NCBI RefSeq assembly: GCF_900188275.1
Contig: NZ_FZNY01000001.1
Span: forward strand, 1,364,001 to 1,428,000
DNA: 64,000 bases
Source: Dokdonia pacifica
GTDB lineage: Bacteria; Bacteroidota; Bacteroidia; Flavobacteriales; Flavobacteriaceae
Direction: 5' to 3'
How positions within the stretch are numbered: position 1 is the stretch's first letter; each line of letters opens with the position of its first letter. Made by a program: the position numbers and the translations under genes. Positions 1,191-62,086 of this stretch are shown here, one piece after another. The notes beneath the pieces were generated by a model, which made no database searches, had not been told where the DNA came from, and saw only the letters and a program-made list of their open reading frames with translations.

Positions 1191-1214
1191 TATACGCTTT
1201 CGCGAAAGCGTATA
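1191..1214. repeat. Dispersed palindrome, 24 bp perfect copy
   Basis: A perfect 24-bp inverted repeat with core GCTTTCGCGAAAGC and arms extended by TATAC/GTATA. It lies 16 bp upstream of the dCMP deaminase start codon, so it is probably in the 5' leader or the promoter. Confidence 0.95.
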
Positions 1215-1230
1215 CCCGCATAATAAATAC

Positions 1231-1659
1231 ATGGGTTTAAAGCAACATAAATACGATATCGCCTATCTAAGAATGGCGCGCGAATGGGGAAAACTATCTT
1301 ACTGTGAGCGTAAACAAGTTGGCGCAATTATTGTAAAAGATAAAATGATCATATCTGATGGCTATAATGGAACGCCTACAGGATTTGAGAATTTTTGTGA
1401 AGATGAAGAAGGATATACAAAGTGGTATGTTTTACACGCCGAAGCAAATGCAATTTTAAAAGTAGCATCATCTACACAATCTTGTAAAGGAGCTACGTTA
1501 TACATTACATTAAGTCCTTGTAAAGAATGCAGTAAGCTTATTCATCAAGCTGGAATAAATCGCGTTGTTTTTAAAGAAGGTTATAAAGATCAGAGCGGTG
1601 TGAAATTTTTAGAAAAAGCAGGCGTTGAGATAGTACATCTTTCAAATTTAGAAGATTAA
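1231..1659 (+). CDS. Deoxycytidylate (dCMP) deaminase family protein
   Basis: A zinc-dependent cytidine/deoxycytidylate deaminase fold protein of 142 residues that would convert dCMP to dUMP, feeding thymidylate synthesis. The zinc and catalytic motifs are complete: HAEANAIL (His ligand and catalytic Glu) and PCKECSKLI (two Cys ligands). The N-terminal segment CERKQVGAIIVKD and GYNGTPTGF are typical of the dCMP deaminase/ComEB branch rather than of tRNA adenosine deaminase. Its TAA stop overlaps the ATG of the next gene (TAATG), so the two are translationally coupled. A 24-bp palindrome lies directly upstream. Confidence 0.92.
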   Translation: MGLKQHKYDIAYLRMAREWGKLSYCERKQVGAIIVKDKMIISDGYNGTPTGFENFCEDEEGYTKWYVLHAEANAILKVASSTQSCKGATLYITLSPCKECSKLIHQAGINRVVFKEGYKDQSGVKFLEKAGVEIVHLSNLED

Positions 1660-3245
1660 TGAAATTAAAAAAGAAATACGTACCCATCCTTTTTAGCTTA
1701 GGAATCGTTTTTGGAATTGTGCTAGGTAGTTTTTTAAACTTTGGTACTTCTTCCGATACCGCTTTTTTTAGTTCAAACAGTAAAAAAGAAAAACTTAATA
1801 AACTCATAGATTATATAGACTATGAGTATGTAGATACTGTAAATACAGATAGTATTGTAGAAGTAACTGTAAATGGAATTTTAGATAACCTAGATCCTCA
1901 CTCTACATATATTCCTCCAGAAGAATTAAAAGAGATTGAAGAAAATATGAAGGGTGATTTTGTAGGGATAGGTATAAGTTTCTACCCTTACCAAGATTCT
2001 GTTGCTGTTATACAAGCTATAGAAGGAGGACCTAGTGCTAAAGTAGGAATACAAGGCGGAGATCGTATTGTATCTGCAGATGGCATTCCGCTTTCAGGAA
2101 AAGCAATGGATGACGACTCTTTATCTAAAATTTTAAAAGGACGTATCGATACTTCTGTAAATCTAAAAATAAAAAGACAAGGTGAAGATGAGCTTATTTC
2201 ATATCGAGTAAAAAGAGATGTTGTTCCTATATCAAGTGTCATTGCAAATTATATGCTTACAGACCAATTAGGATATATTAAGATCAATAGATTTGCCGAA
2301 TCTACCTATGACGAATTTAAAAAAGCATTAAAAGAGCTTAAATCACAAGGAGCTACACAACTAGCATTAGACTTAAGAGATAACCCTGGCGGATACGTCT
2401 CTAGTGCAGAGGCAATAGCCGATGAATTCCTAGAAAAAAATAAACTCATCTTATTTACTAAAAATAAAACAGGAAAGATTAATAAAACATACTCAAATCG
2501 AGGAGGTATTTTTGAAGATGGAGAAGTGTTTATTTTGATTAATGAAAACTCAGCTTCTGCTAGTGAAATTGTTGCTGGAGCATTACAAGATAATGACAAA
2601 GGACTCATTATTGGAAGACGTTCCTTCGGGAAGGGGCTTGTGCAACGAGAAATGGCCTTGGGTGATGGTAGTGCTGTACGTCTTACCATAGCGAGATACT
2701 ATACTCCCACAGGTAGATCTATCCAAAAACCCTATGAGTTAGGAAATAAAGACTATTTTGAAGATTATTTAGAGCGTTATGAAAATGGCGAATTACGAAG
2801 TGCAGATAGTATTAAAGTAGCCGACTCTCTTAAATTTAAAACCCCATTAGGGAAAGTCGTATACGGTGGAGGAGGTATTATACCCGATGTCTTTGTTCCT
2901 AAAAATACTGATTATGAGATAGAACACCTTAATTATTTACTCAGATCTGGATATATGCGTATGTTTATTTTTGAAGAGTTAGAAAAAGATCGTCCGTATT
3001 ATAATACCCTTTCAATAGAGAAATTTCAAAATGAAATTATAATATCAGATACAATTGTAGAAGATTTTATATCTTACGCACAATTAAGGGGAATTAATTT
3101 AAGAGCAAAAAAATACAGGGACGTTTATAAAAGATACCTAAAAGCCACTATGGCAAAACAGCTCTTTGGGAACAATGCTTTTGAACAAATGGTTAATCAA
3201 GATGATGCGATTATCCAAAAGGTTGTTAGTATAAGTACCAATTAA
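1659..3245 (+). CDS. S41 family C-terminal processing peptidase
   Basis: A periplasmic, membrane-anchored serine protease of the CtpA/Prc S41 family, 528 residues. An N-terminal transmembrane anchor spans about residues 8-27, a PDZ domain about 90-170 (with GIGISFYPYQ and GGDRIVSADG), and the protease core about 200-350. The catalytic pair is visible: Ser300 in NENSASASEI and Lys325 in SFGKGLVQ, 25 residues apart as in E. coli Prc. A C-terminal extension of about 170 residues follows, usual for the Bacteroidetes form. The start overlaps the dCMP deaminase stop by one base. S41 proteases trim C termini of secreted proteins; the substrate here is not known. Confidence 0.95.
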   Translation: MKLKKKYVPILFSLGIVFGIVLGSFLNFGTSSDTAFFSSNSKKEKLNKLIDYIDYEYVDTVNTDSIVEVTVNGILDNLDPHSTYIPPEELKEIEENMKGDFVGIGISFYPYQDSVAVIQAIEGGPSAKVGIQGGDRIVSADGIPLSGKAMDDDSLSKILKGRIDTSVNLKIKRQGEDELISYRVKRDVVPISSVIANYMLTDQLGYIKINRFAESTYDEFKKALKELKSQGATQLALDLRDNPGGYVSSAEAIADEFLEKNKLILFTKNKTGKINKTYSNRGGIFEDGEVFILINENSASASEIVAGALQDNDKGLIIGRRSFGKGLVQREMALGDGSAVRLTIARYYTPTGRSIQKPYELGNKDYFEDYLERYENGELRSADSIKVADSLKFKTPLGKVVYGGGGIIPDVFVPKNTDYEIEHLNYLLRSGYMRMFIFEELEKDRPYYNTLSIEKFQNEIIISDTIVEDFISYAQLRGINLRAKKYRDVYKRYLKATMAKQLFGNNAFEQMVNQDDAIIQKVVSISTN

Positions 3246-3263
3246 TTAGGGGATATATTATAT

Positions 3264-3787: not shown

Positions 3788-3792
3788 ATGTT

Positions 3793-4469: not shown

Positions 4470-4493
4470 TATACGCTTTCGCGAAAGCGTATA
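4470..4493. repeat. Dispersed palindrome, 24 bp perfect copy
   Basis: Identical over 24 bp to the copy at 1191-1214. It lies in the divergent region between the MarC gene (ends its upstream side at 4374) and the DUF3109 gene (4615). Confidence 0.95.
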
Positions 4494-7912: not shown

Positions 7913-9061
7913 TTATAATGTTTTTGTAAGTTTAGCCATAAACTCACCTATTTTGCTAGGCTCTAACCATCGTGTAACAACCACAAGATCATGAGCACGA
8001 TCTACAATAATAAAATTTCCTCCAAACCCAGCAGCATAGTATACATCTTCGCCTACCTGCTCCCAATGTCTAGGTCCTTTCTTATTAAGCCACCACATAA
8101 AGCCATAATTTACATTAGGCTTAGAGGGTGCTATCGCATCTTGTATCCATTCTGAAGAGATCAAACGTTCGGTATTCCAAACCCCATCATTTAAAAATAA
8201 TAACCCAAACCGCGCCATATCTTTAGCACTAATAAATAATCCTGCACCACTGTGTCCGCCACCAGTAACAGATTTCATTTGGATACCATCTACCTCTACC
8301 CACGCATCTTCATAACCATGCCATCTCCAAGCAGTAGAAGCTCCTATTTTATCCATAATTTCCTCTTTTAAAACTTGAGGTAGGGGTTTGCGCCACACAT
8401 TTAAAAGACTATATGATAGTACATTTACACGTACGTCATTATACTCCATGACAGTGCCAGGAGTTTTGGGTGCTGCATACTGCCAGTCATCTAGATCACC
8501 TTCTCTAGGTGGGCGATCTGCCCAATCTTTTCCACCCCATAAAATTCCTTGCCAGGCACTATTTTGTTGTAATAAATGACGCCATGTAATTTGAGAATTA
8601 TGACGTCCATCAAATGTACCGTCCCAGAGATATTTTTTTACAGGATCATCTACACTAGCAATAAGGTTTTTATCAATAGCGAGACCAGCCATAGTAGACA
8701 AGAAGCTTTTCGTCACAGAAAAAGTCATATCTACGCGTTCTGTATCTCCCCATTGCGCTACGAGCTTTCCATTTTTTAGAATCATTCCAGCAGGGCCACC
8801 ACGTTTTTTTGTAGGGCCTAAAATTTGGTGAAATGGTTCGCGTCTAAACCCTTCTAAAATAGCAATACGCAGGTCTCTAGAGCCTGAATATTCGTTCGCT
8901 TTCGCGAAAGCGATTACATCAACAAGACCTTCTGAGTCAATACCCGCTTCTTTAGGAGTAATTTCCTCCCAATTGGCATTGCGTTCAGGAAAATAATAAT
9001 CTTGTGCCGTACCTTGAAAAAATGTAAGGCTAGCAATAAAAAATATACTGAGTGTTTTCAT
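7913..9061 (-). CDS. Secreted serine hydrolase (class C beta-lactamase fold)
   Basis: A 382-residue exported protein of the beta-lactamase/transpeptidase-like family (PF00144). It has a signal peptide (about 1-19, ending GTAQ), the SxxK motif SVTK with Ser115 and Lys118, a YxN motif in MEYNDVRVN, and a third motif region near GFGGN. Such proteins are usually esterases or D-aminopeptidases rather than antibiotic-resistance enzymes. A perfect 18-bp palindrome (8896-8913) lies inside the frame and encodes AFAKA at residues 51-55, in the N-terminal part before the catalytic serine. Confidence 0.88.
   Translation of the reverse strand: MKTLSIFFIASLTFFQGTAQDYYFPERNANWEEITPKEAGIDSEGLVDVIAFAKANEYSGSRDLRIAILEGFRREPFHQILGPTKKRGGPAGMILKNGKLVAQWGDTERVDMTFSVTKSFLSTMAGLAIDKNLIASVDDPVKKYLWDGTFDGRHNSQITWRHLLQQNSAWQGILWGGKDWADRPPREGDLDDWQYAAPKTPGTVMEYNDVRVNVLSYSLLNVWRKPLPQVLKEEIMDKIGASTAWRWHGYEDAWVEVDGIQMKSVTGGGHSGAGLFISAKDMARFGLLFLNDGVWNTERLISSEWIQDAIAPSKPNVNYGFMWWLNKKGPRHWEQVGEDVYYAAGFGGNFIIVDRAHDLVVVTRWLEPSKIGEFMAKLTKTL
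8896..8913. repeat. Dispersed palindrome, 18 bp perfect copy in a gene
   Basis: Core GCTTTCGCGAAAGC with TC/GA extension. It is inside the serine hydrolase gene and read on the minus strand as AFAKA. Confidence 0.95.
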
Positions 9062-12352: not shown

Positions 12353-13073
12353 GGATTTACTTATACATAAATATTTACATCAAACTCTTACTAACGAAGA
12401 GCAGATGGCTCTGAATGAGTTATTAGAGAGTGATCCTGAGTTTAAAGCCAATTTTGAACTTGAGAAAGACTTACATACAGTACTCATAGATGTTGGAAAA
12501 GAAAGCTTAAAACAACAGTTTGTTGATTTTGAAAATCAAGAACAAGAACAGCAGTTTGAAAAAACATCCCCTTCATTCTTGAGATATGCAATTGCTGCTT
12601 GTTTGATTATAGGGCTTAGTATTTTTGCATCTAAATATTTTATAAATACAACAAGTACAGACGATCTTTTTGCAGAAAATTTTGTTGCTTATCGCAATAT
12701 CGTACTTCCTATAGAACGAGGAGAAGGAATAGATTCTCCTGAAAAAGAAGCTTTTTTCAAATATGAAATGAAAGAGTATCAAGCGGCCATCAATGCTTTT
12801 GAAACAGAGTTTTCTAGAACTCAACAACCATATTATTTGTTTTATACTGCAAATGCTTATTTGGCATTAGGAGACACAAAAAATGCTATTACACTACTTG
12901 AGAAACATCAGCGTTTTAAAGATGACTTTTATGAAAAATCACGATGGTATCTAGCCTTAGCATACCTAAAAGAAAAGAACCAAAATAAAAGTGTGATGCT
13001 TTTAGAAGAGATTAGTGCTAGTGATGGGTATCATCATAAAGAAGCAAGCGTTCTATTAAATGCTATTCGTTAG
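12345..13073 (+). CDS. Membrane TPR protein, probable anti-sigma factor
   Basis: A 242-residue single-pass membrane protein. The N-terminal cytoplasmic part (DLLIHKYLHQTLTNEEQMAL, then LLESDPEFKANFELEKDL) resembles the N-terminal domain of anti-sigma factors that pair with ECF sigmas. One transmembrane helix spans about residues 80-97 (AIAACLIIGLSIFASKYF), and the periplasmic part holds two to three TPR-like units (YYLFYTANAYLALGDTKNAI; SRWYLALAYLKEKNQNKS). It overlaps the sigma gene by 8 nt, and converges on the TPR-CHAT gene with an 11-bp overlap. TPRs on the outer side could dock the TPR-CHAT protein; this is inference. Confidence 0.82.
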   Translation: MDRDLLIHKYLHQTLTNEEQMALNELLESDPEFKANFELEKDLHTVLIDVGKESLKQQFVDFENQEQEQQFEKTSPSFLRYAIAACLIIGLSIFASKYFINTTSTDDLFAENFVAYRNIVLPIERGEGIDSPEKEAFFKYEMKEYQAAINAFETEFSRTQQPYYLFYTANAYLALGDTKNAITLLEKHQRFKDDFYEKSRWYLALAYLKEKNQNKSVMLLEEISASDGYHHKEASVLLNAIR

Positions 13074-16000
13074 CTTCTGTACGCTTTCGCGAAAGCGTAT
13101 ACAACACTCCTAAAAGTATAATTCCTCCTATAATATACCACCACATATACGAAGAGTTTACAATAGGAGAGGTGTCGCCACTAAGTATAAATCCAGCCCA
13201 ATAATAGGGTTGTTTTAAATCCTGATCTGTGGTTGTGCTTAAGTATAATCGTTTTGCCTCTTGTAATGCCTTATCCTTTGTCATTCCAGATTCTAGATTA
13301 TTATAAAAATAGGTGGTAATTGTAGCGGTTTCTTGATCAGGGACTTTCCATAATGTCATTAAAGTGCTACTCACACCTGCATAAGTAAATGCACGAGACA
13401 TACTCATGACTCCCTCTCCTTTTTCTAATTTTCCAAAACCAGTATTACACGAACTTAAAACAGCAAGATTTGCCTTGAGATTAAGCCCATAAATTTCAGA
13501 AGCTGTAAGTAAACTATCTCCTTGCTTCTGAGAAAAAAGCATTTTATTATAAAGTGGGTTGTTTTGATCTACTTCAGTATGCGTTGCGAGATGAAGAATA
13601 TTATATTCTTTACTCAACGTGATAAAATTTTCTTTGGTAGCCTCTTCTCCAAGGTATGATTTTCCGTTTGTGATTCTTTCAATTTCTTTTACTTCTTTTG
13701 CATTGTTAGGCAGTGGGTTTTTATCATATTTTGGAGCAAAACCTAACCACCCTTTTCCTTTATTATTTAGGTTGATTTGTTCTTCTAATAACTGTAAAGA
13801 TCCCGCATAACTAATCGCATAATTCTCTATAAGAAATGTTTCTTTTTGTTGTAATACTTCAAATGGGAGTAAGCTTAAAATATCATCTGTAATGAAGGTT
13901 AATTTTGTGATTTCGTCTGGGAGTTTTGGTAATAGCTGATCCCACATTTTTTGTGATAATGCGCTATTAAATTTTTGTTTGGATATAGAAGTTACTAATT
14001 GATTAATATCCTCTTTTAATGACTTAGAGGTGGAGAATTGTTCTATATAGTTTTTGTTTTTAGTAATAGTAAATCGATACCATGTATGGGTATCTATAAA
14101 ATACATAATGATGGCTTCTTCTTCCTGAAGATATTTGTTTGTGAAACCATTAAAATCTTTTGTGGCAGATAAGTATTTAAGGTTTTTTAATTTAGGATAT
14201 GTATTTTGAATAGCTTTTTGTAAACTATCGTATGTATGTTCAAACATAAGCTGTCTATTATATAGCTTTTGTATTTTATCTGAATCTTTATACTTAGATT
14301 GTTTTGTATTGTAAATACGTTTATTATTACGCTGTAATGAGTCTAATAATTGTGCTTCCGTATACAGTAATTCTTCTGGGATACCGGCTACTTTTTTAAA
14401 TCGTGTTCCTTGAATTCCCTCTAATAAAACTGAATTTTTATTGATTTCTAGGTATCTGAAAAAAATTGACTTCAAATCTTCAGAATCTTCTAGTTGTATA
14501 TTGTCATAAATTTTTGAAATAATTTTAGCTAGAAGTTCTTTTATTGTATTACCATAAATGATCTTATTAAACTGATTTGGAAATCTGTTTTTATGATCAA
14601 TAATTGTTTTTAAAAAGTGTTCATATTCCTTACTTGTTGGACTACTCTTTAAAAGAAGTTCATAAGCTTCAATTTTTAGCTCGATATCTGGATATGTATA
14701 CTTTTGAGGAATTTTTTCTTTAATCGATTTGAGAGCTTGTGTTGCGTTTTGAGTATCATTTACTGCAGTGTAGTATATGATAGTATTCATATCATTACGC
14801 CTATGAAAGTAATCTGCATCTTTAAAGCGATCCTGCAAGACTTCCTGAGATTTTTCTAGTAAAGGAGGCACTTTCTCTAATTGATTGGTTTCAAAATAGA
14901 GTTCAGGAAGATTGTTATACACATCTATCAAAAACAAATCTCTATTGATAGCTTGTGCAACACGCTCTGTTTTTAAGAAATAGGCTTCAGCTTTATCTAG
15001 CATTCCTAAATCTTTATACGTGTTTGCCAGATGAAGATATCCTGCGCAAACCCAATGATGGTTTTCAGGCACTACTTTAATGACAATATCTATTGCTTCC
15101 TTTCCTAATGAAATAGCCTCTTCTTTCCTACCTATTTTAGCGTATACCTTACCAAGGGTGCGAAGTGATTCTGCAATACGAGATGGTTGCTGGCTTAAAT
15201 ATAACTTTGCGTGTTCTAGTGCTTTTTCTCCATAAATCTGTGCTTTGGTATAATCGCCTATTTTCATATAAGAAGTGGCTACCTGATTATAATCTAATGC
15301 TAGATATGGATTTTTCTCATTAGCTTTTGAATCATATTTTACAGCCTCTTGAGCGTAAAAAAGACCTTTTTGATTATTCCCTAACCGATCACCAAACATA
15401 AGTGCAAGATTATAACTAGTGCTTGCTAGTACATCAAGATTTGGTTCTTGAAGCTGATCTCCTATTTGTAAAGATTTTTCATAGTATTTTGCAGCCATCT
15501 CAAAATCTTCTGTGAGATCATAGGTGGCTCCCATAATACTATATGCAATACTCACCTGATTTTTATAACCTAGATTTGAAAATAATTCAATAGCTTTTGT
15601 AAGACTTAAAATAGACTTTTCATACTCCCTCCAGTCTTGATGTATCCTTCCCATATACTCATGACTCAAGGCTTCTATAAAAGGATCATTTCCTGGTTTG
15701 TTTTTATAGGTTGTAACGTATGTTTTAATTTTTTCGGTATCGTATTTTTTTGAAACTTGAATATCCAGATACATCTCATAATAGGCAATAGTATGCTTTA
15801 TTTTTAGGTCATTAAGAGAAGCCGTTTCATAGTTTTTTTTTGCTTTTTTTATGAGTGTTTCTGCTTCATTAAAACGCCTCTTGTTTGATAGAATACGGGC
15901 AATATATACGGTCGCTTTTGTATTTTGAAGAGGAGCATTTTGAGTTTGCTTTTCTATGTTTTGAAAAGAGGTAAGTAAAGAATCTTGTTTACTCATAGCT

Positions 16001-16837: not shown

Positions 16838-17490
16838 GTAAATAATTCTTTGAGCTTTAATGTGTCATTTTGTGCAAGGCGTTTACATATTTTTATAAAT
16901 GCAATAGCCGTAATCATAGCATCTCCAGAAGCGGTATGCCTATCATATAATGGTATTTTTAACGCTTCACTTAGTTGATCTAAACTATATCCTTGTTGCA
17001 TATTCATTCTATTTACAGGATGTTGTAATCGTTTGTATAAAGTTCCTGTATCTAAGGTTTTATTCTTTAATTTCCCTAGATGATGGCGTTGTAGCATTTT
17101 ATTAATGACTGCAATATCAAAACCAATATGATGCCCGATAATAATATCAGTACCAATAAAATGTAAGGTTCGTTGTATGGCTTCAATTGCTGAGATTTTA
17201 TCGTAAGCCCCTTTTTTTAAAATCCCATGTATGGGTGTGCTTTTAGGATCGTAATGATCCTGTTCTACATATAATTCTAAATTATCAGAAACTGTAATTG
17301 TATCTCCTTTTATGGCAATGGCTCCTATAGATAAAATGCGATCTTTTTTTATGTCTAAACCCGTGGTTTCTGTATCTAAGGCAATAAACCGAGTCTCTGC
17401 TAATGGTTTTTGTTCCGCTTTCGCGAAAGCGGACTCATACTGCTCCCAAAATGGAGGGTATTCTTTAGTATGTTGCCATGGCCATTTCAT
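16834..17490 (-). CDS. DnaQ-type 3'-5' exonuclease
   Basis: A 218-residue DEDDh exonuclease, similar to the proofreading/PolC-type exonuclease domain. Exo I is FIALDTETTGLDIKKDRI, Exo II is IGHHIGFDIAVIN, Exo III is DRHTASGDAMITA with the His-Asp pair. In flavobacteria this stand-alone exonuclease travels with the cNMP/CBS/DUF294 protein found upstream here at 9 nt. A perfect 20-bp palindrome (17414-17433) lies in the N-terminal extension and encodes SAFAKAE at residues 20-26, before the catalytic domain. Confidence 0.9.
   Translation of the reverse strand: MKWPWQHTKEYPPFWEQYESAFAKAEQKPLAETRFIALDTETTGLDIKKDRILSIGAIAIKGDTITVSDNLELYVEQDHYDPKSTPIHGILKKGAYDKISAIEAIQRTLHFIGTDIIIGHHIGFDIAVINKMLQRHHLGKLKNKTLDTGTLYKRLQHPVNRMNMQQGYSLDQLSEALKIPLYDRHTASGDAMITAIAFIKICKRLAQNDTLKLKELFT
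17414..17433. repeat. Dispersed palindrome, 20 bp perfect copy in a gene
   Basis: TCCGCTTTCGCGAAAGCGGA, in the N-terminal linker of the exonuclease gene, translated as AFAKA. Confidence 0.95.
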
Positions 17491-19586: not shown

Positions 19587-20363
19587 ATGATAGATACACT
19601 TCAAATTGCCATTATTCAAACCCATCTTGTTTGGGAAAATGCTACAGCAAATCGTAAAAACTTAGAGGCTTTAGTAGCGCAAGTGTCTGATGAGGTGCAA
19701 CTAATTATTTTACCGGAAATGTTTACAACAGGTTTTAGCATGGATCCTGTATCTCTTGCAGAGCCTATGGATGGAATTACTGTGCAATGGATGAAGAAAT
19801 GGGCAAGCCAAAAAGATATAGCAATTTGTGGGAGTATCATTATAACAGAAAACAATAAGTATTATAACCGATTTCTTTTTGTAAAACCAGATGGCACTAT
19901 AGACCATTATGACAAACGTCATCGATTTATGATGGCTGGAGAAGGTGAGTTATATACTGCTGGAGAAACTCAAGTTGTAATACCTTATAAAGGTTGGAAA
20001 TTGTTTCCACAAATATGTTATGATTTACGCTTCCCTGTTTTTGCTCGTAACACAGTAGATTATGATGTTGTGATTTATGTAGCAAATTGGCCAAAACCTC
20101 GTGTAGCAGCGTGGGATGCTTTACTTAAGGCAAGAGCAATAGAAAACATGAGCTATGCGATAGGAGTAAATCGCATAGGGCTTGACGGGAATGGATTGGA
20201 GTACGTAGGCCACTCTGGAGTATATAATGTGTTAGGAGATGAGATTGCTTTCGCGAAAGCGGAAGAAAAAATAATCACAGCTACATTATCTAAAAGCCAT
20301 ATTGAAGCCACAAGAAAAAAATTACCTTTCCTTGAAGATAGAGATCAATTCACACTAGTTTAA
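19587..20363 (+). CDS. Omega-amidase (nitrilase family, YafV/Nit2-like)
   Basis: A 258-residue carbon-nitrogen hydrolase. The catalytic triad is visible: Glu44 in LPEMFTTGFS, Lys110 in YDKRHRF and Cys144 in FPQICYDLRFP. The RHRF and MAGEGELYTAG context fits the omega-amidase (YafV/Nit2) branch, which deamidates alpha-ketoglutaramate and so drives glutamine-dependent transamination of the methionine keto-acid. The methionine-type aminotransferase at 5247-6389 would be its partner. A palindrome (20247-20260) is in frame and encodes AFAKA at residues 221-225, in the strand-turn near the C terminus. The gene converges on the Ig-like lipoprotein gene with a 4-bp overlap of stops. Confidence 0.9.
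   Translation: MIDTLQIAIIQTHLVWENATANRKNLEALVAQVSDEVQLIILPEMFTTGFSMDPVSLAEPMDGITVQWMKKWASQKDIAICGSIIITENNKYYNRFLFVKPDGTIDHYDKRHRFMMAGEGELYTAGETQVVIPYKGWKLFPQICYDLRFPVFARNTVDYDVVIYVANWPKPRVAAWDALLKARAIENMSYAIGVNRIGLDGNGLEYVGHSGVYNVLGDEIAFAKAEEKIITATLSKSHIEATRKKLPFLEDRDQFTLV
20247..20260. repeat. Dispersed palindrome, 14 bp core copy in a gene
   Basis: Core GCTTTCGCGAAAGC only, inside the omega-amidase gene, translated on the plus strand as AFAKA. Confidence 0.95.
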
Positions 20364-23742: not shown

Positions 23743-23766
23743 TATACGCTTTCGCGAAAGCGTATA
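23743..23766. repeat. Dispersed palindrome, 24 bp perfect copy
   Basis: Identical over 24 bp to the copies at 1191 and 4470. It lies in the predicted 5' untranslated leader of glyS, where the RNA could fold into a 10-bp stem with a CGCG loop. Confidence 0.95.
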
Positions 23767-31386: not shown

Positions 31387-31469
31387 CTTTTGTACTAAAT
31401 ATATAAATTGATTCTTTCGTTTTGCGCTTTATCGCTTTGCTTTTCCTATGGTCATGAATCTCACGAGTT

Positions 31470-31485
31470 CGCTTTCGCGAAAGCG
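31470..31485. repeat. Dispersed palindrome, 16 bp perfect copy
   Basis: CGCTTTCGCGAAAGCG, in the convergent gap between the second T9SS cargo gene and the small lipoprotein gene. Confidence 0.95.
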
Positions 31486-31972: not shown

Positions 31973-34900
31973 TTAGAATAACGCTTTTAATTGAATATTT
32001 CCTGTGTGTATGGTTCTAGAATCTTCACTTTTTCTACCAAAATAGGAGATGTTTAAATCTAAAAATTTAGTCAATCTTTTTTGAGCAATTAGGTTCCATG
32101 TAAAATTGGTACCTGGTTGCAAACCTTCTAGTATCTGATACGCAACAGGACTAAAAGCACTTCCTTCAAATTGATTGTCTATATAATTAAATTCTCCCAT
32201 AAGAGATAGCTTCTCACCATCTGCTATCGCAAAAGAAGTGCCAAAACTATTTTGCTGTAGCGCTTCTAGTCCTCCATTGGTGTTCTTTTTATCTTGATAT
32301 GTGTAAAATAAAGATACCCTAGAAGTCTTACTTATGAGGTATGAAATCTTAGGATTTGCATTGGTATTGTCAATACTAAAATTTCTAGATGGAAAATTTT
32401 CTGCAACACTTTTTGTTGTTCCAGTTTCTCCTTTAAAATTAAAAAGCCAACTCTCTTTTATTTTATGTAAAAAATTAATTTGATGTGTTTCTAATTCGTT
32501 ATCCTGAAGCCCGGTTGAAAGTAAATTAGTAGATTGATTAGAAATATAACTATACGTTGTGGTATAGTTTTGTTTTCCGCGATTAAAGGTAAATGCATTA
32601 CGAAAATTCAAACCTAATCCTATTTCATTTTCATCGGCTTCAAATGGATTGATTGTAAAGCTTTCTCCTTCGCGCAAAGCCCTTCTGTCTATACTGTAGT
32701 TGGTTTGGTTGTAAAAGTGTGATAAAACCTTCTTAAATCCCTTCTGGCCATTCCATTGTTGAGGATTAATCGTTAATTGGCTACTTAATTTATTCTGATG
32801 TGTCTGTAGGAAAATTTGATTAGGTAATAAGACACGTATAAAATCGGCTTGATCTTGAAACTGAGCAAGATCAAATTCTTCTAATTGCTGAATACCATCC
32901 CCATTAAAATCATTCCAAGTATGTGTACCCTGTCCTTCATCTACCGCAATAAATGTAAACTCCTGTTGTGGTTGAGTGCCGCTATTGGTTTCAAAAACAG
33001 TATTAAGTCTGATAATGTCTTTTGCAAAGCGCTGATCATATAATAATCTTGAGTTTAATGAATTTTGAGTTTCTATAGCAGTATCTTCAAACGCCAAGGT
33101 TCTATAGTTTACAAAAAGAGACAAATTGGTTTTTTTATTCTTTACCAGTTGAGATTTTAAAAAATAAGTATTTGAGGTATTTACGCGTTGTATGCTATTT
33201 GCTCGTAAACTATCATTGATTCGATACCGGTAGCCCGCCTCTATATAGACATTTGTACTATCACCCACACCCACAAAACCTTCATATAGTTGAAATCGCT
33301 GACTGTCGGGAGTAATAGAATCATTTGCCTTTGTTATTCTCACATTATCTTCCGTATAAAATTTACCTCCTACCCAAGCTTTTTTAAGATCATATACTGC
33401 ACTACTGTATAATTTGGAGAAGTTGGAAGTCACATTCAGGTCGTTTGTATTTAAGATACTTCCTGTAATAGCTCCTTTTACTTTTTTAGAATGAATAGTA
33501 CTTGCAACTGAATGCCTCGTTCCTGAATACGTAGTATTAAAATCTAGATTTTCAAAACTATATATGATAGAGCCTAGTTTATTATTCTGATATCGTAAGC
33601 CTGTGGTCAAAAAACTTTGATTTCCTGTTATAATAAGTCCATTTCCATTAGTGTTTTGAAGCCCTGTGTCTATATTCCAATCACGGTTAAACTCTACATT
33701 ATATAAACCTTCAACATTGGTAAAACTTTCTTGAATATAATCCCATTTTCCAAAAGCCTCCAATGTAGCAGTGCTGTCTTTTTTAAACAATTGCTGTTTT
33801 GCATTGATATGTGTTGCAAATGCATTGTTATCATCATCATCGAGATTAGAAAAAAGATTTAAGTCATTTTTACTTCCCGCAGCTTCAAAAGAAATAGCTG
33901 TTTTTTCTGAAGGGGTATAACTTCCATTAACAATAGCAAGCTGTAATAAGGTAGGCGCAAAAAGTCTAATTTGAGGAGCAAAAGAGCCTTGAGAAACCCC
34001 ATCAATAGGGGCGACATATTCAAAAGTGCGTCGTAATGTATTAGTGGTGCTTAAAATATAATCACCTTGATTAGGTCCTACATTTGTAAATCGAACATTA
34101 AATAGTTCTTCTTCGGGATCGGTACTAAATTCAAATACATCTACACCATTTACAGTAATCTGACGGTATAAAACTTTATTATCACTAAAGGTGTCTGGCA
34201 CGGCACTTTGAGCAACCATTTGGTTTGGATCGTCACCAGCATTGGCAAGTACAGCGACTTGAGCCTCACTAAGTGTTTGCTGTAAAGGTTGGTTTTTGGC
34301 ATCAGATTCAGAATACACTTGTGCGGCAATCTTAAAAGTATCGCTTTCGCGAAAGCTACCACCTCCATACGCCACAAAACGAGTAAAATTGCGCTCACTA
34401 AACTGATAATCTACCGTAATACGCATCTCACTGGTGATGGGAAATGTAGAATTAAAACGAATCTCACCTGCATTATAATCAATGATATAATCTTTTGCTT
34501 CGCCACGTTCCAGAAGAATTCCATTTACATATACAGCCTCACTTCCAGACACAATCAAAACGAAAAGTTCGCCATTAGGCCCTGTAAGTTTATAAGGCCC
34601 TTGATTTCCTTCTTGCCCAGTAAATACACTAGTATTAAAAACTCCTCTTACTAGAGCGCCTGTTGCAAATAGGTTTGTCTTACTATCTTCAGAATGGTTA
34701 ATGTCTCCACGTAAAGACAAGCCCTGTATTTTTTTAGTAAACTGTCCGTAATAAGATTCGGTGTCTTGAAGATTAATATCTCCTGCTCGAATATTCCAAT
34801 TGTCACTAAAAAGCTCAATAAATATTTGATCAAACTCATCTAAATTTTGAGAAAAACCACCTTCCTGACTAGGGATATTAGCGTCCTGTATAGAAGCTCG

Positions 34901-39000: not shown

Positions 39001-39020
39001 TACGCTTTCGCGAAAGCGTA
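39001..39020. repeat. Dispersed palindrome, 20 bp perfect copy
   Basis: TACGCTTTCGCGAAAGCGTA, 38 bp after the aldo/keto reductase terminator. Confidence 0.95.
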
Positions 39021-40727: not shown

Positions 40728-42098
40728 TTATCCAAATAAATGCCTTACGACATCGTGTACTTTAGCTACTTTAATGATGGAAATCTTATAGTCATGATTT
40801 GGAATTTTACAGTATTTAGAGACAATAATTCCTCTAAACCCTAATTTTTCGGCTTCATGGATGCGTTGCTCTACTCGTGTAACTGGACGTACTTCTCCAG
40901 CAAGGCCAATTTCGGCAGCAAGGCATAATGATTTGTCTATGGCAATATCTACATTACTAGATAACACCGCTGCGATCACAGCAAGATCAATGGCTGGGTC
41001 GTCTACAGAAATTCCTCCAGTAACATTTAAGAATACATCTTTTGCACCTAATTTGAAACCAGCTCTTTTTTCTAAAACCGCCAATAGCATATTGAGACGT
41101 TTTACATTATAACCTGTGGCACTACGTTGAGGTGTTCCATAGACAGCAGTACTTACTAATGCTTGGATTTCAATCATGAGAGGTCGTAAGCCTTCTAAAG
41201 TTGCAGCGATAGCGGTACCACTTAAATCTTCATCGTTTTTTGATATTAAAATCTCACTAGGGTTTGATACTTCTCGCAAACCGCTTCCTTGCATTTCATA
41301 AATACCTAATTCATTGGTGCTCCCAAAACGGTTTTTATGGGCTCTTAAAATTCGATATACGTGATTACGATCTCCTTCAAACTGGAGAACAGTATCTACC
41401 ATATGCTCTAAAATTTTTGGCCCAGCAATATTTCCATCTTTAGTGATATGACCAATTAAGATAACAGGTGTTGCGGTTTCTTTTGCATATTTGATGAGCT
41501 CTGAAGTGGTCTCTCGTATTTGGGAAATGCTTCCAGGGCTACTTTCTATGTGATTGGTGTGTAACGTTTGTATAGAATCTATAATGACAATATCGGGTTG
41601 TATCTCTGAAATATGTCTAAAGATATTTTGTGTTTTTGTCTCTGCAAGAATATAGCATTGATCACTATCTGGATGGATCCGATCTGCTCTCATTTTAATT
41701 TGTTGCTGACTTTCTTCTCCAGAAACATATAGTGTTTTATAGGGAAGGTTTAAAGAAATTTGAAGGCAGAGTGTACTTTTTCCAATACCAGGTTCTCCTC
41801 CTAATAGTGTTAAGGAGCCAGGTACTAATCCTCCTCCCAAAACACGATTGAGTTCGCCGTTTTTTGTGTCTAATCTTTTTTCGGCAGAGGCGGTAATTTC
41901 ATTTATTTTTAATGGTTTATTGGTACGGGTATTTGCTTTCGCGAAAGCGGTATCCTGTTTCCAATCCTTTTTGTCTTCCTTTTGGATGACTTCTTCAACA
42001 ATAGTATTCCATTCTTTACAGGCATGACACTGTCCTTGCCACTTGGCGTGTTGTGTTCCGCAGTTTTGACAGAAGAAAGTTGTTTTTGTTTTGGCCAT
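40728..42098 (-). CDS. radA: DNA repair protein RadA
   Basis: A 456-residue RadA/Sms recombination ATPase that promotes branch migration in recombinational repair. Parts in order: C4 zinc finger (Cys10, Cys13, Cys24, Cys27), RecA-like ATPase with Walker A GEPGIGKST (101-109), the RadA signature HKNRFGSTNELGIYEM, and a Lon-protease-like C-terminal domain (VFLNVTGGISVDDPAIDLAV). A palindrome (41935-41948) lies in frame between the zinc finger and the ATPase and encodes TAFAKANTRT at residues 50-59. A variant repeat (42106-42122) lies 8 bp upstream of the start. Confidence 0.97.
   Translation of the reverse strand: MAKTKTTFFCQNCGTQHAKWQGQCHACKEWNTIVEEVIQKEDKKDWKQDTAFAKANTRTNKPLKINEITASAEKRLDTKNGELNRVLGGGLVPGSLTLLGGEPGIGKSTLCLQISLNLPYKTLYVSGEESQQQIKMRADRIHPDSDQCYILAETKTQNIFRHISEIQPDIVIIDSIQTLHTNHIESSPGSISQIRETTSELIKYAKETATPVILIGHITKDGNIAGPKILEHMVDTVLQFEGDRNHVYRILRAHKNRFGSTNELGIYEMQGSGLREVSNPSEILISKNDEDLSGTAIAATLEGLRPLMIEIQALVSTAVYGTPQRSATGYNVKRLNMLLAVLEKRAGFKLGAKDVFLNVTGGISVDDPAIDLAVIAAVLSSNVDIAIDKSLCLAAEIGLAGEVRPVTRVEQRIHEAEKLGFRGIIVSKYCKIPNHDYKISIIKVAKVHDVVRHLFG
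41935..41948. repeat. Dispersed palindrome, 14 bp core copy in a gene
   Basis: Core GCTTTCGCGAAAGC in the RadA linker between zinc finger and ATPase, translated as AFAKA (residues 51-55). Confidence 0.95.
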
Positions 42099-44824: not shown

Positions 44825-45673
44825 TTAGTTAATAGCCATATTGTCTATGAGACGTATTTCTCCTGAAAAAGCAGCAATAAAAGCGCGATACTTTTGATGG
44901 GTACGCTTTCGCGAAAGCGGTTTTAGATTCTTTATATTAGAGATTTCAAAATACTCTAACCTAAGATGAGGATTGTTTTCAAATTGAGTAGTCACCCAAG
45001 CTCTAAGCGTGTGAGCACTTTTGGTTTTAAAATCCTCTTTCACTTGGCGGAGTATTTTGTAAATAAAAGTAGCTTCTTCTAATTGTTGAGGTGTTAATCT
45101 GGCATTACGACTACTCATTGCCAAGCCATTTTCTTGTCTATGAATAGGGCATCCAGTAATTTTTAGTGGTAATTTTTCAATTTCTACAAGTTTTTTTACA
45201 ATAAGTAATTGTTGGAAATCTTTTTCTCCAAAAAATGCTTCGTCAGGATTTACTTGTCTAAATAAATGATTTAGAACGGTTCCGACACCATCAAAATGTC
45301 CAGGCCTATGAGTACCTTCCATGACAGTTTCTATGCCATTAAAATTGTATTGCTTTGATACGACTTTATCTCCATACACTTCTTGAGGTGTAGGGGCATA
45401 AATACAAACACTTTCTTTGTATTTGTCTAAAAATGAGGCGTCTTCATCTAAAGTACGAGGGTATTTTTCTAAATCTGAAACATTATTAAATTGTGTGGGA
45501 TTCACAAAAATACTTACAATTATATAATCGTGACGTTTTAAACCAAACTCAATAAGTGATGCGTGTCCTTGATGTAAAGCTCCCATTGTTGGGACAAAGC
45601 CTATGGTAGATTTTTGCTTTCTTTTCTCTGAAACATATTTAGCTATTTCAGTTTTTGTTTTTTTTAAGTTCAC
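44825..45673 (-). CDS. panC: Pantothenate synthetase
   Basis: A 282-residue enzyme joining pantoate and beta-alanine with ATP. Signature pieces: [15 protein letters not shown] (HIGH-like), [21 protein letters not shown] region and MSSRNARL (KMSKS-like). The start codon is GTG at 45673 ([10 protein letters not shown]); no ATG nearby gives a family-like N terminus. A palindrome (44904-44919) lies in the C-terminal subdomain and encodes LSRKR at about residues 252-256, between the strand ending NLKP and the RLIDN motif. It is divergent from the glycogen-synthase-like gene. Confidence 0.97.
44904..44919. repeat. Dispersed palindrome, 16 bp perfect copy in a gene
   Basis: CGCTTTCGCGAAAGCG, in the C-terminal part of panC, translated on the minus strand as LSRKR. 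Confidence 0.95.
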
Positions 45674-53632: not shown

Positions 53633-54343
53633 CTAATTATTCTGTTGATGATGTATAAGATGTACACCTCTTACATATTTTGAGTTTTTAGATAAACGGC
53701 TCGTAAGTTGCTGCGTGAGTTGTCTACTTTCTTTATCGTGAGGAACTTCGTATTTCAGTTCTAAAACAACATCAGATAGTTGCGCTTTGGACACTTCGTA
53801 ATTTGTAAAATGCGGATTATAAAAAGTCATATTGTAATCGATAGTGATTCTATACCTTTTACAATTAGATAAGAAATACCTTCGCTCATATGAGTTGTAT
53901 AAAGAAGGTGTTAAGCTGCCAAGTTTTAAAGCAAGTTCTTGCGGGTGTGCTTCTTGAATAGCTTTTGTAATCTTTTGTTGAATTTCTTTTGTCGAATCTT
54001 CTTTGAGATTAAAAGTGTTTTCGCTTAAAGCGAAAGACAATTTATCACCTACAGCGCCATATTTTTTCTTGATCTCAAGAACTGGATTTTCTATAATTTC
54101 AAAAGCATCTCCATACCACCGAAGCCTATATTTATCACGAATTTCATCTCCAGATACATTTTGATGATAAAAACTCATAGATGCATCATCATAATAAATA
54201 TTATTGACGGTACGGCGGTGAAAAATTTCGCGAAAGCAAAAAGAATTAGAAAGCACAACAGTATGTATAAGATCTTCAGGGGTTCCTGTCTCATAAATAA
54301 ATTTACGCTCGTATCTTAAATTTTTAGCGGCTACTTTTCCCAT
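53633..54343 (-). CDS. VTC-domain polyphosphate polymerase
   Basis: A 236-residue protein made of one VTC catalytic domain, the tunnel fold that polymerises polyphosphate from ATP in yeast Vtc4. Tunnel residues seen: E-R-K in LRYERKFIYE, Arg-x-Arg in DKYRLRWYGDAF, Glu-x-Lys in VLEIKKKYG, RYFLSNCKRYRI and Glu-x-Lys in VVLELKYEVPHD. No membrane segment, so the domain should act in the cytoplasm. An earlier in-frame ATG at 54367 exists; ATG 54343 leaves a 20-nt overlap with the CotH gene. Operon order: DUF4956, CotH, VTC. A variant repeat (54019-54036) and a degenerate palindrome (54226-54237) are in frame. Confidence 0.88.
   Translation of the reverse strand: MGKVAAKNLRYERKFIYETGTPEDLIHTVVLSNSFCFREIFHRRTVNNIYYDDASMSFYHQNVSGDEIRDKYRLRWYGDAFEIIENPVLEIKKKYGAVGDKLSFALSENTFNLKEDSTKEIQQKITKAIQEAHPQELALKLGSLTPSLYNSYERRYFLSNCKRYRITIDYNMTFYNPHFTNYEVSKAQLSDVVLELKYEVPHDKESRQLTQQLTSRLSKNSKYVRGVHLIHHQQNN
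54019..54036. repeat. Second inverted-repeat type, reverse orientation
   Basis: TTTCGCTTAAAGCGAAAG, the exact reverse complement of the repeat at 35191-35209, in frame in the VTC gene as LSFALSE. Confidence 0.75.
54226..54237. repeat. Degenerate palindrome copy
   Basis: TTTCGCGAAAGC keeps the centre and right arm of the main palindrome; the left GC is changed. In frame as FREI in the VTC gene. Confidence 0.55.
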
Positions 54344-58179: not shown

Positions 58180-58193
58180 GCTTTCGCGAAAGC
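58180..58193. repeat. Dispersed palindrome, 14 bp core copy
   Basis: Core GCTTTCGCGAAAGC, in the divergent gap between the DUF4956 gene and atpD, 57 bp upstream of the atpD -7 box. Confidence 0.95.
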
Positions 58194-58311: not shown

Positions 58312-59826
<1,515 letters not shown>

Positions 59827-60170: not shown

Positions 60171-60191
60171 GTATCATCCTTTAATCAAATA

Positions 60192-60224: not shown

Positions 60225-60242
60225 GTTTTTAAGAGTAATTGT

Positions 60243-62027
60243 TTACTTAGGATCCAGCCACATATCACGTCTTTTTACTATGGACTTATCGGATATTGTC
60301 GTGTCTAATTGAATAATATAAGAAGGGTCTTTTTGTAAAGTCGCTGTTGTTTCTTTAGTGACCCCATAACGCTCATAGGCGATGTTTAAGATATCATTAG
60401 GAGAAAGTGATGCTATGATATCTTTAAAGGAAGTGTCCTTTGTTACAGCCGTATTATTCACTTTAATGATTTTATCTCCTTTCTCTAATCCTGCTTTATA
60501 GGCAGCAGTGCCTATAGTTGTATTTTGAGTAATGGTTCCATTTGTGATATTCACACCAAAAGAAGCTTTGGTGGCATCTTGTGATATTGATACACCTACA
60601 CTTTCAAAAAGACGATTCATATCTGGCATATTACTTTTGTAAATGTAATTCTGAAAGAAAAAATCTCCAAAGGCATCTCCAGCATATTTCTTTAATAAGT
60701 TATGCAAATCTTCTACGGTATATGGTTTTTCTTTTTTGCCATGTTTTTGCCAAACTAGTTTCATATAATCATCTAGTTGTAATCCTTTTTCTCTAAGAGA
60801 TAGGTCTAAAGCAAGTCCTAATGCACTTCCGTATGAGTAGTAAGATATAAATGTGTTGTTTCTGTTTACGGGATCTACGGCGGTAGCAGCATCTACAAAA
60901 GGTGCTTGGTAACTCATTTCTATAGGATTGAAAAAGTCACGAGCTGGAGAGTTCCATACATAATTAAATGTACGTGTTAACCCCTTTATGTACTCTTCTT
61001 TTGAAAGAAGTCCAGCTCTACACATCATTAAACTCGTATAATAGCTAGTAAAACCTTCGGCAAACCATAATTCTCCGCTCATATTAGCTGCTTCAAAATC
61101 AAAAGGCTCTAAGCTTTGAGGTCTAATGCGTTCTACATTCCATCCATGAAAAAACTCATGAGATACTGTGCCTATATTTCTTTTTAAACCTCCATTGGCT
61201 AAGCTTCGAGTACTTGTGAGAATTGTAGAGTTTCTGTGTTCCATGCCATCACCAGATGCATTAGGAATGTAACATGCTAGAAAGTAGTAATTATCATAAT
61301 CATAATTAGGTAGTTTCCCAAAGACTTCTTTTTGTTGCAATACTACTTTTTTTACATCTTCAAAATAAGTATCTAATTCTGCTTCTGTACCGTTGTGATG
61401 TAGTACAAAATTAATCGTTTGCTTATCTACGGTAAAAGAGCGTATACTGTGATTACTAATTTCTGTTGGACTGTCCATAAAATACTGTAAGTCTCTTGCA
61501 TAATAGCTGTTGTTGCCATTAGATTTCAATTGGGTAGCGACCTTCCAGTTGAGGTCTTTTCGAGGCTTGAAAGTTACCTGTATTGCTTTATCTGCAAGGC
61601 TTGGCATATACATAAACGTAGCAGGCATATTAAGATGTGCATGTGTTTCGTCTATTTGTGCGTAGGTACCGTCTCCACGATTTGCAAACAGTGTATAAGA
61701 CACCTGAACAGTTCCGTCATGATCTTTTACGTTCCATGAGTAAGGATCTGGTCGTGTGGTGTTAAGCGTGTTTCCTTTTCCATCTGTGACTACCACATTA
61801 TATACGTTTTTTGCAAATTCGTGTATGGCATATCTTCCTGGGGATGTTCTACTCATCCTGAAGGTTACTTCTTTGTCTTTTACATTTGAAAAAACTGCCA
61901 TTACTTGGGCTTCATGATGGATTGCATTTTCAAATGAAATGGTATAAGAAGTAGCTACTTTTTCTTTTTGAGCTTGTATTGTAAAGGATAAAGAAATGGT
62001 GAGTAGTAGTACTAAGATGTATTTCAT
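60243..62027 (-). CDS. M61 family metallopeptidase with PDZ domain
   Basis: A 594-residue exported peptidase of the M61 (glycyl aminopeptidase) family. It has a signal peptide (about 1-20, ending IQAQ), an N-terminal beta domain, the zinc site HEFFH at 290-294 with third ligand Glu324 in WFAEGFTSYY, and a PDZ domain near residues 490-570 (ITQNTTIGTAAYKAGLEKGD, KIIKVNNTAVTKD). Probably acts in the periplasm or outside on short peptides. It is convergent with atpC. A palindrome lies between it and the spermidine-synthase gene, upstream. Confidence 0.95.
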   Translation of the reverse strand: MKYILVLLLTISLSFTIQAQKEKVATSYTISFENAIHHEAQVMAVFSNVKDKEVTFRMSRTSPGRYAIHEFAKNVYNVVVTDGKGNTLNTTRPDPYSWNVKDHDGTVQVSYTLFANRGDGTYAQIDETHAHLNMPATFMYMPSLADKAIQVTFKPRKDLNWKVATQLKSNGNNSYYARDLQYFMDSPTEISNHSIRSFTVDKQTINFVLHHNGTEAELDTYFEDVKKVVLQQKEVFGKLPNYDYDNYYFLACYIPNASGDGMEHRNSTILTSTRSLANGGLKRNIGTVSHEFFHGWNVERIRPQSLEPFDFEAANMSGELWFAEGFTSYYTSLMMCRAGLLSKEEYIKGLTRTFNYVWNSPARDFFNPIEMSYQAPFVDAATAVDPVNRNNTFISYYSYGSALGLALDLSLREKGLQLDDYMKLVWQKHGKKEKPYTVEDLHNLLKKYAGDAFGDFFFQNYIYKSNMPDMNRLFESVGVSISQDATKASFGVNITNGTITQNTTIGTAAYKAGLEKGDKIIKVNNTAVTKDTSFKDIIASLSPNDILNIAYERYGVTKETTATLQKDPSYIIQLDTTISDKSIVKRRDMWLDPK

Positions 62028-62072
62028 AGTATGTGATTTTAATATAATATAACGTTTTATAAATGCTTTTTT

Positions 62073-62086
62073 GCTTTCGCGAAAGC
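62073..62086. repeat. Dispersed palindrome, 14 bp core copy
   Basis: Core GCTTTCGCGAAAGC in the 63-bp gap between the spermidine-synthase gene (ends 62091) and the M61 gene (starts 62027). Confidence 0.95.

Follow-up and report, generated by a model that had tools for sequence, protein, structure and literature searches.

We tentatively propose that a perfect 14-bp palindrome, GCTTTCGCGAAAGC, with the weaker footprint around it, may be a self-recognition mark maintained by its hosts, Dokdonia, Nonlabens and one further flavobacterial genus, most likely working in the manner of the known DNA uptake sequences (DUS/USS). It is the even spacing of the copies, together with their conservation in place, two features absent from the original prediction, that points to a mark of this kind.

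Copies in the window and across the family

The window, that is, the whole 64-kb stretch of Dokdonia pacifica DNA analysed, has all 14 perfect copies claimed for it, and 100 shuffles gave no exact match, in line with the original prediction of far fewer than one copy by chance. No copy with one mismatch is present in the window, and a single copy has two. The sites are listed below; the start positions given previously are 0 to 5 bases smaller, each having been taken at the first base of the longest perfect palindrome around the site.

Copy 1, 1196..1209: intergenic, between plus-strand ORFs (one ends at 1127, the next starts at 1231); 24-bp palindrome at 1191-1214
Copy 2, 4475..4488: intergenic, divergent ORFs on either side; 24-bp palindrome at 4470-4493
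Copy 3, 8898..8911: within ORF 7913-9061 (minus strand), PF00144 family; reads A-F-A-K-A
Copy 4, 13083..13096: close to the 3' end of ORF 13063-16134 (minus strand), a CHAT/TPR protein
Copy 5, 17417..17430: close to the 5' end of ORF 16834-17490 (minus strand), an exonuclease (RNase_T); reads A-F-A-K-A
Copy 6, 20247..20260: within ORF 19587-20363 (plus strand), a carbon-nitrogen hydrolase; reads A-F-A-K-A
Copy 7, 23748..23761: intergenic, upstream of the ORF at 23816 (tRNA synthetase class II); 24-bp palindrome at 23743-23766
Copy 8, 31471..31484: convergent intergenic; also one end of a dispersed element of about 65 bp (31425-31487)
Copy 9, 34343..34356: within ORF 31973-35410 (minus strand), no Pfam hit
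Copy 10, 39004..39017: intergenic, tandem plus-strand ORFs on either side
Copy 11, 41935..41948: within ORF 40728-42098 (minus strand), putatively RadA-like by its domain set; reads A-F-A-K-A
Copy 12, 44905..44918: close to the 3' end of ORF 44825-45673 (minus strand)
Degenerate copy AATTTCGCGAAAGC, 54224..54237: two outer letters differ from the 14-mer
Copy 13, 58180..58193: divergent intergenic
Copy 14, 62073..62086: intergenic, minus-strand ORFs on either side (60243-62027 and 62091-63629)

The three intergenic copies described earlier as identical over 24 bp (at 1191, 4470 and 23743) are real, each being TATAC-14mer-GTATA. The motif-free gap of the window, at 44.9-58.2 kb, contains ordinary genes.

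Several hundred copies per genome had been predicted, and the 5.52-Mb genome of D. pacifica (G000) has 903, with none for a reversed-pattern control. All 18 Dokdonia genomes searched carry between 369 and 905 copies and, among 397 genomes of the family, more than 19 copies were found only in Dokdonia, Nonlabens and one further genus. These counts, in the genome and in its relatives, bear out the view that a flavobacterial motif has been selected or spread: the copies far exceed what composition predicts and extend well beyond the window. In what follows, G016 is a Dokdonia genome, G289 a Nonlabens genome and G238 a genome of the third motif-rich genus. Copy number is flat against genome size in 12 genomes, and density drops with size (rho -0.80, P 0.0016).

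A survey of 18 genomes from 17 other genera (20 kb each, the all-N stretches of G018 and G026 being left out) found no 12- or 14-mer palindrome with at least three copies that might be another palindromic "dialect". The extended motif had no match below E 0.9 among plasmids and phages, and two related Nonlabens phages (65.7 kb) have no copy, where about 13 would be expected at host density. Exact-string and topic searches of one open-access collection of papers gave no match for the 14-mer. The string TTTCGCGAAA does occur in 10 papers of that collection, among them an account of words absent from the human genome.

Spacing, conservation and architecture of the sites

The motif occurs about once per 4-5 kb of chromosome, and its copies are more even than random in four genomes. 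The spacing CV is 0.536 against 0.98 for random placement in G000 (464 kb; 0 of 5000 randomisations), 0.415 against 0.969 in Nonlabens G289 (200 kb; 0 of 3000), 0.712 against 0.982 in G014 (400 kb; P 0.001) and 0.648 against 0.935 in G238 (160 kb; P 0.025). Gaps shorter than 1.5 kb number 4 in G000, 17 in G016 and 5 in G014, where 24.8, 40.8 and 21.4, respectively, would be expected, and the Fano value per 20 kb is 0.24 in G000 and 0.23 in G016. A 5-kb fragment contains a copy at 80-90% of positions, compared with 64-69% if placement were random. Around the G016 chromosome, the only one sampled in this way, each of 20 stretches has 4 to 8 copies, a uniform distribution with none of the ori-ter bias that the original prediction had suggested looking for. 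Stretches of 13-27 kb without the motif do occur; three such gaps resemble accessory clusters, and long unaligned segments are weakly poorer in copies (1.72 versus 2.12 per 10 kb). ORFs, which make up 92% of the DNA, hold 66 of 95 copies, and the remaining 29 are found in the 8% that is intergenic, where they track the length available in each gene orientation (17:9:3, chi-square P 0.89).

Conservation in place is strong and acts at the DNA level. When sites of G000 are aligned with G014, whose DNA is 85% identical, 66 of 70 are identical, about 7 being expected, and 235 of 237 third codon positions inside the 14-mer are unchanged, compared with a fraction of 0.733 beside it. The flanks are as conserved as the genome average (0.854 versus 0.855, P 0.37). 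Nine sites that differ between the two genomes comprise four at one mismatch, two at two mismatches and three at background. In close Dokdonia proteins, 16 of 26 absent counterparts are substitutions without a gap, and gaps are commoner than at random places. Absent counterparts are often near-variants, so spread by recombination can be taken as no more than a proposal. Between Dokdonia and Nonlabens, a site is shared in 2 of 24 protein comparisons, so sites are mostly unshared.

Variants of the 14-mer are scarce: the ratio of one-mismatch to perfect copies is 17:266 in the samples of Dokdonia (G000 and G016) and Nonlabens (G289), and 12 of these 17 native variants differ in the outer two letters. 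For the USS of H. influenzae the corresponding ratio is 764:1471 (PMC1939737). G238 has 9 variants to 29 perfect copies, a proportion close to that on islands in foreign genera. On the g99 island, in a genus otherwise free of the motif, the copies have decayed, with 9 variants to 15 perfect; islands outside g99 are marginally more decayed (5:25, P 0.047), and native and foreign copies of an efflux region show no difference (28:1 and 14:1).

Each site is a perfect dyad with a weaker, symmetric footprint reaching about +19 bp on each side. Read outward from the core, the strand has few G residues on either side, at 0.064-0.069 for +4 to +19 versus 0.148-0.167 for +25 to +40. Neither of its inner sequences, CGCG and TCGCGA, is in excess elsewhere than in the 14-mer (237 versus about 401 expected, and 35 versus about 43). 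A hairpin, cruciform or RNA hairpin was rejected, as the flanks, the part of the site variable enough for such a test, show no consistent pairing; the correlation of flank pairs is negative at +6 in G000 (z -3.6) and at +5 in G016 (z -3.2), and positive at +2 (Nonlabens, z 3.0) and +8 (G238, z 2.2). Nor did the sites show a hidden direction, an EM split of the flanks falling within the re-dealt null (-7738.9 versus a mean of -7747.6, sd 5.6, best null -7730.9).

A possible uptake-like mark

What might such a site do? In the literature (PMC1939737, PMC2397512, PMC3630211, PMC7811141), DUS/USS are present in hundreds to thousands of near-perfect copies, evenly spaced and limited to related genera, enriched between genes, and stringently conserved in place with weaker flanks. 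The 14-mer resembles them in its over-representation and few one-mismatch variants (G238, at 9:29, excepted), in even spacing without ori-ter bias, in stringent conservation in place, weaker flanks and restriction to related genera, and in intergenic enrichment with about two thirds of the copies in ORFs, the USS of H. influenzae being 65% in ORFs (PMC1939737). It differs in being a perfect palindrome, orientation-free, longer, purer and in Bacteroidetes, whereas the DUS/USS described in those papers are non-palindromic. Its flanks are no more divergent than average, unlike those of the Neisseria DUS, which are described as diverging more than average. Moreover, unlike DUS/USS, the 14-mer is a candidate mark with a putative receptor, and a pilus ATPase is inconsistent across the motif-rich genomes.

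Under this proposal, a sequence-specific receptor would bind kin DNA by means of the palindrome, and the bound DNA would be taken in (ComEC is present in the motif-rich genomes tested) and then enter the chromosome by homologous recombination. If this recombination favoured DNA that bears the motif, the result would be a putative molecular drive that could give rise to new copies in permissive places, repair variants and space the copies, leaving one in most fragments a few kb long. ComEC is as common in motif-poor relatives (19 of 20) as in motif-rich genomes (10 of 10), so it does not explain the taxonomic limit. The type IV pilus/T2SS ATPase PF00437 exceeds the cut-off in 2 of 10 motif-rich and 5 of 20 motif-poor genomes. 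No reader protein was found among the families searched (pilus ATPase, PF00145 and PF01555 methyltransferases, RAYT and ParB), and the literature searched yielded no uptake or competence experiment on Dokdonia or Nonlabens.

It is conceivable, if on the doubtful side, that these genomes have a new kind of genome-wide marking system: a 14-bp palindrome, free of orientation and placed at even intervals between G-poor outward tracts, maintained against mutation by a putative sequence-specific reader and tied to no pilus ATPase, to neither of the two methyltransferase families searched, to no RAYT and to no shared additional ParB. Should it be linked to uptake, it would amount to an uptake sequence of palindromic form among the Bacteroidetes; otherwise it would be a nucleoid ruler of a new, evenly spaced type. 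Uptake sequences are described in Pasteurellaceae and Neisseriaceae, and the flavobacterium Riemerella columbina is described as preferring its own DNA in uptake, with A/T-rich candidate repeats that are unproven. A palindromic counterpart in marine Bacteroidetes, if true, would imply that DNA exchange selective for self arose with another geometry, and probably with another receptor. It would also help to explain how these bacteria choose kin DNA from sea water. If there is no role in uptake, a near-invariant, evenly spaced site in about 400-900 copies would amount to a new layer of bacterial chromosome organisation, of which, to our knowledge, there is no description.

Other readings of the palindrome

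The main rival, in our judgement rather unlikely, is that the 14-mer serves chromosome organisation inside the cell: a protein of that function (gyrase, condensin, a nucleoid-occlusion factor or a nucleoid-associated protein) would bind it, and its sites would be needed at regular intervals. The perfect dyad and symmetric footprint would suit a dimeric protein, and the even spacing and strong DNA-level conservation are consistent with it. However, copy number does not follow chromosome length, density is lower in large genomes, and stretches of 13-27 kb lack the motif. The parS, Noc, SlmA and matS sites are palindromes of 12-16 bp that number tens or fewer and favour particular chromosome regions; the 14-mer, palindromic like them, has hundreds of copies, uniform in the G016 chromosome, and the lack of an ori-ter gradient argues against a MatP-like or Noc-like mark of a chromosomal domain. 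Furthermore, no extra ParB-family protein is particular to motif-rich genomes: 9 of 10 have a single one, as do most motif-poor genomes, and the second ParB-family protein of G000 (616 aa) belongs to a type that motif-poor genomes have as well.

Improbable in our view is a mechanism like that of cyanobacterial HIP1, a repair bias linked to methylation: the core would be marked by a methyltransferase, and mismatch repair would convert near-matches into the palindrome. The original prediction had noted a likeness to HIP1, which holds as regards style, the 14-mer being a highly iterated palindrome whose variants lie mostly in the outer letters, as described for HIP1 (PMC4390886). The link to a methyltransferase does not hold for the two families tested: the C5 methyltransferase PF00145 is present in 7 of 16 motif-rich genomes, PF01555 exceeds the cut-off in 2 of 16, and G000 has neither. 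HIP1 and the alternate HIPs are also of 8 bases rather than 14, and the short core of the 14-mer is not enriched by itself.

Less probable still is a Chi-like recombination or self/non-self signal for a helicase-nuclease, its palindromic form allowing it to work in both directions. The density of the motif, its absence from the two Nonlabens phages and the G-poor outward strand next to the core on both sides would fit such a signal. Known Chi sites, however, are of 5-8 bases and non-palindromic, and neither even spacing nor a near-invariant 14-bp core would be expected of Chi. A transcription terminator or promoter element is very unlikely: intergenic enrichment would suit it, but most copies are within ORFs, the orientation classes follow available length, and consistent flank pairing is lacking.

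A mobile or amplified repeat (a REP/RAYT element or MITE) is the least likely reading, despite the commoner gaps at absent sites, the hundreds of palindromic copies that recall REP/BIME-RAYT families, and the dispersed element of about 65 bp, of which 5 copies were detected in 464 kb, 4 of them ending on one side in a perfect 14-mer; the likeness to REP drawn originally fails because sites are conserved in place, many of them in genes, because most absent counterparts are ungapped substitutions, and because the Y1 transposase (RAYT family) that was to be sought is missing in 6 of the 10 motif-rich genomes tested, D. pacifica among them, while 91 of 95 copies lie outside the 65-bp element.

Abundance, range and spacing of the palindrome

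All 14 perfect copies of the palindrome GCTTTCGCGAAAGC that the original prediction placed in the window are present. Its coordinates mark where the longest perfect palindrome of each site begins; the 14-mer itself starts 0–5 bases downstream. No match arose in 100 dinucleotide shuffles of the window, which also contains no one-mismatch copy and a single two-mismatch copy. The whole genome (G000; 5.52 Mb in 31 contigs) carries 903 copies, with none for a backwards-pattern control. A contiguous 464 kb of it, made up of the window and 400 kb fetched, holds 95 perfect copies, plus 11 with one mismatch and 18 with two; the corresponding counts in three Markov controls were 0, 0–1 and 0–1. The palindrome is a real and strong feature.

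A search of 79 genomes, G000 included, found 369–905 copies in all 18 Dokdonia genomes. Among 397 genomes of the family, high counts occur only in the window's genus, g1, taken here as Dokdonia, in g11, taken as Nonlabens (578, 664 and 609), and in a third genus, g213 (408), the rest having 0–19. The titles among 104 matches listed in a scan of named contigs include Dokdonia (38), Nonlabens (25) and strain BBFL7 (4), and no comparable palindrome was found in 20 kb sampled from each of 18 genomes of 17 other genera. A comEC tree places g213 as sister to Dokdonia (97/94), although its long branch makes this unsure; Nonlabens forms a separate clade whose placement is not settled.

The copies are spread more evenly than chance would have them. 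Spacing in the 464 kb of G000 has a CV of 0.536, as against 0.98 for random placement (0 of 5000 placements were equally low), and gaps under 1.5 kb number 4 where 24.8 are expected. The CV is 0.415 against 0.969 in Nonlabens (47 copies, 200 kb), 0.648 in g213 (23 copies, 160 kb; P 0.025) and, one 27-kb gap included, 0.712 against 0.982 in a second Dokdonia, G014 (82 copies, 400 kb; P 0.001). Twenty 20-kb stretches of the complete chromosome of a third, G016, hold 4–8 copies apiece (124 in total, 4 one-mismatch), so density shows no ori-ter gradient, and again few gaps are shorter than 1.5 kb (17 versus 40.8 expected). The Fano factor per 20 kb is 0.23 for G016 and 0.24 for G000. A 5-kb fragment would carry at least one copy in 80% of cases in G000 and 90% in the Nonlabens genome G289, versus 64% and 69% under random placement.

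With a simple ORF caller, 66 of the 95 G000 copies lie within ORFs, as compared with 92% of the DNA being coding; 46 of these 66 are in the frame reading A-F-A-K-A. Intergenic copies divide 17:9:3 by gene orientation, tracking the available length. There is also a dispersed intergenic element of about 65 bp. One end is the 14-mer (perfect in four of five copies, one-mismatch in the fifth); the opposite end is TACGCTTT or resembles it. G014 has many short matches to the element, at 74–97% identity. Its copies are:

31425–31487 of the window
offsets 261530, 309525, 319318 and 391835 from position 964000 of G000 contig C21

Conservation in place and the footprint around the core

Alignment of G000 with G014 (84.9% identity across 344 kb) made 70 of the 95 G000 sites comparable, 10 of the other 25 lying in the 56-kb end beyond the fetched G014 stretch. 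Sixty-six of the 70 are identical over all 14 bases, where about 7 would be expected by chance, and in reverse 66 of 71 comparable G014 sites (from 82) are identical. Because several differing sites were misaligned, the best 14-mer was sought within 60 bp of each counterpart, which gave 67/72 perfect in one direction and 67/71 in the other. The nine differing sites have one mismatch (four), two (two) or five, no better than background (three), and are therefore near-variants or blanks. This resembles, on few sites (n = 9), a pattern described in a report on DNA uptake sequences (DUS), where absent copies face one-mismatch forms or unrelated sequence (PMC2397512). At 55 coding sites, 235 of 237 third codon positions are identical inside the motif versus 1100 of 1501 beside it; selection or drive therefore works at the DNA level.

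When a 30-kb region is set against other Dokdonia (71–78% identity), G000 sites match fully in 14 of 17 comparisons; taken from the relatives' side, several copies lack a counterpart in G000. Among Dokdonia protein pairs of at least 70% identity, 176 comparisons, which count one site repeatedly across several genomes, fall into 146 same, 4 near, 10 gapped and 16 substituted. Some of the substituted cases exchange all five residues at unchanged length, and these wider comparisons also contain two- and three-mismatch intermediates. Gaps fall at motif sites in 9 of 17 Dokdonia/g213 comparisons (at least 70% identity) versus 1.6% of random places, which indicates that copies lie in variable loops. 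Genera have few positions in common: with Dokdonia queries, 18 of 64 are shared with g213 and 2 of 24 with Nonlabens.

The footprint extends beyond the core. On either side G is preferred at +1 and A at +3, and A is preferred over the intervening letters at +7, +10, +13, +16 and +19 (z 5.5 in G016, 4.7 in Nonlabens, 0.4 in g213). G is avoided from +4 to +19 (0.069 in G016, 0.064 in Nonlabens) relative to +25 to +40 (0.167 and 0.148). Both flanks are alike in these preferences; consistent pairing of flank letters within sites was not found, and a directional flank model did no better than re-dealt flanks. Twelve of 17 variants native to Dokdonia and Nonlabens are in the outer two letters. Outside the 14-mer, TTTCGCGAAA is found 22 times (expectation 0.5), with no enrichment of CGCG or TCGCGA.

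Candidate functions and machinery

Our leading reading, held at somewhat under even chances and by analogy, is that the motif may be a putative self-recognition mark for uptake or recombination. Its statistical anatomy agrees with that of DUS and USS, the uptake sequences of Neisseriaceae and Pasteurellaceae, on most testable points. Unlike them, however, it is palindromic, its flanks diverge no more than the average, and pilus ATPases do not follow its distribution: type IV pilus/T2SS ATPases exceed the cut-off in 2/10 motif-rich and 5/20 motif-poor genomes. ComEC is present in 29 of 30 genomes tested (10/10 motif-rich, 19/20 motif-poor). The comEC genes of six Dokdonia and of G238, from g213, carry a motif copy at the same position (L371–L375, L377, L378). 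In the flavobacterium Riemerella columbina, one account has own DNA preferred in transformation and describes candidate repeats that are A/T-rich and unproven (PMC7965970).

The main rival reading, that the motif is an intracellular chromosome-organising site, seems to us the less likely of the two; ParB-family matches do not follow the motif's presence. Among motif-rich genomes, to which the methyltransferase search was confined, C5 methyltransferases occur in 7/16 and PF01555 exceeds the cut-off in 2/16; a Y1 transposase occurs in 4/10. All three are absent from G000.

Accessory DNA, phages and islands in foreign genera

Across 12 congeners at least 99% complete (6 of 18, at 76–93%, were left out; genome sizes rounded), copy number is unrelated to genome size (rho 0.32, P 0.31); larger genomes have a lower motif density (rho −0.80, P 0.0016). 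Three long motif-free gaps were examined among those listed, a fourth of 13 kb lying outside the sample; from their gene content, we infer that they are accessory DNA:

Gap 1, glycan/natural-product cluster, GC 0.30–0.31
Gap 2, region of a subtilase and unknown genes, GC 0.30
Gap 3, contractile injection cluster, GC 0.35

The 13-kb gap within the window itself contains ordinary genes, and the motif is only slightly less dense in long unaligned stretches. Host density would predict about 13 copies in the 65.7 kb of two related Nonlabens phages, which contain none.

The motif can serve as an origin tag for transferred DNA. In G124, of the otherwise motif-free genus g99, one 78-kb segment contains every perfect copy (16) and all but one of the 10 one-mismatch copies, and G334 carries related segments on two contigs, C4 and C5 (these form its island sample; two further copies are on C9). 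A motif pair 933 bp apart marks heavy-metal efflux islands, which the whole-genome set shows in five other genera and which also occur on a contig titled Aquimarina; of 19 motif-rich genomes, 12 have the efflux region too, at 71–85% identity. The efflux-island loci are:

L041, TolC-like gene containing the pair (157–1103), heavy-metal ATPase and multicopper-oxidase-like gene, named from translation
L394, L403, L406–L409 and L413–L424, further loci

One-mismatch to perfect copies stand at 22:58 in all fetched island stretches versus 17:266 in the native Dokdonia and Nonlabens samples (P 7e-7), and at 14:40 without G334, which shares ancestry with G124 (P 5e-5). The G124 island alone gives 9:15 (P 3e-5) and the islands of other genera alone 5:25 (P 0.047). 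Inner-letter variants make up 15/22 in islands versus 5/17 in native DNA (P 0.025), G124 and G334 not being independent. Three observations tell against decay outside the native hosts. Motif-rich g213 itself stands at 9:29, which points to weaker or looser upkeep in that genus; native (28:1) and foreign (14:1) copies of the conserved efflux region do not differ; and several island sites are perfect though the islands of their hosts are only 70–80% alike, a sign, in our reading, that these islands arrived separately and recently, each from a different native donor. The case for motif decay outside its hosts therefore leans mainly on the g99 island.

Across 8.3 kb, G000's own efflux region (L423, 71% identity) lacks both perfect and one-mismatch copies, in which it differs from all 12 others among the 13 native efflux loci compared. 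In G238 (L278, L318–L327), a single variant, GCTTTCGCGGAAGC, accounts for four of the nine one-mismatch copies; that genus may tolerate it.
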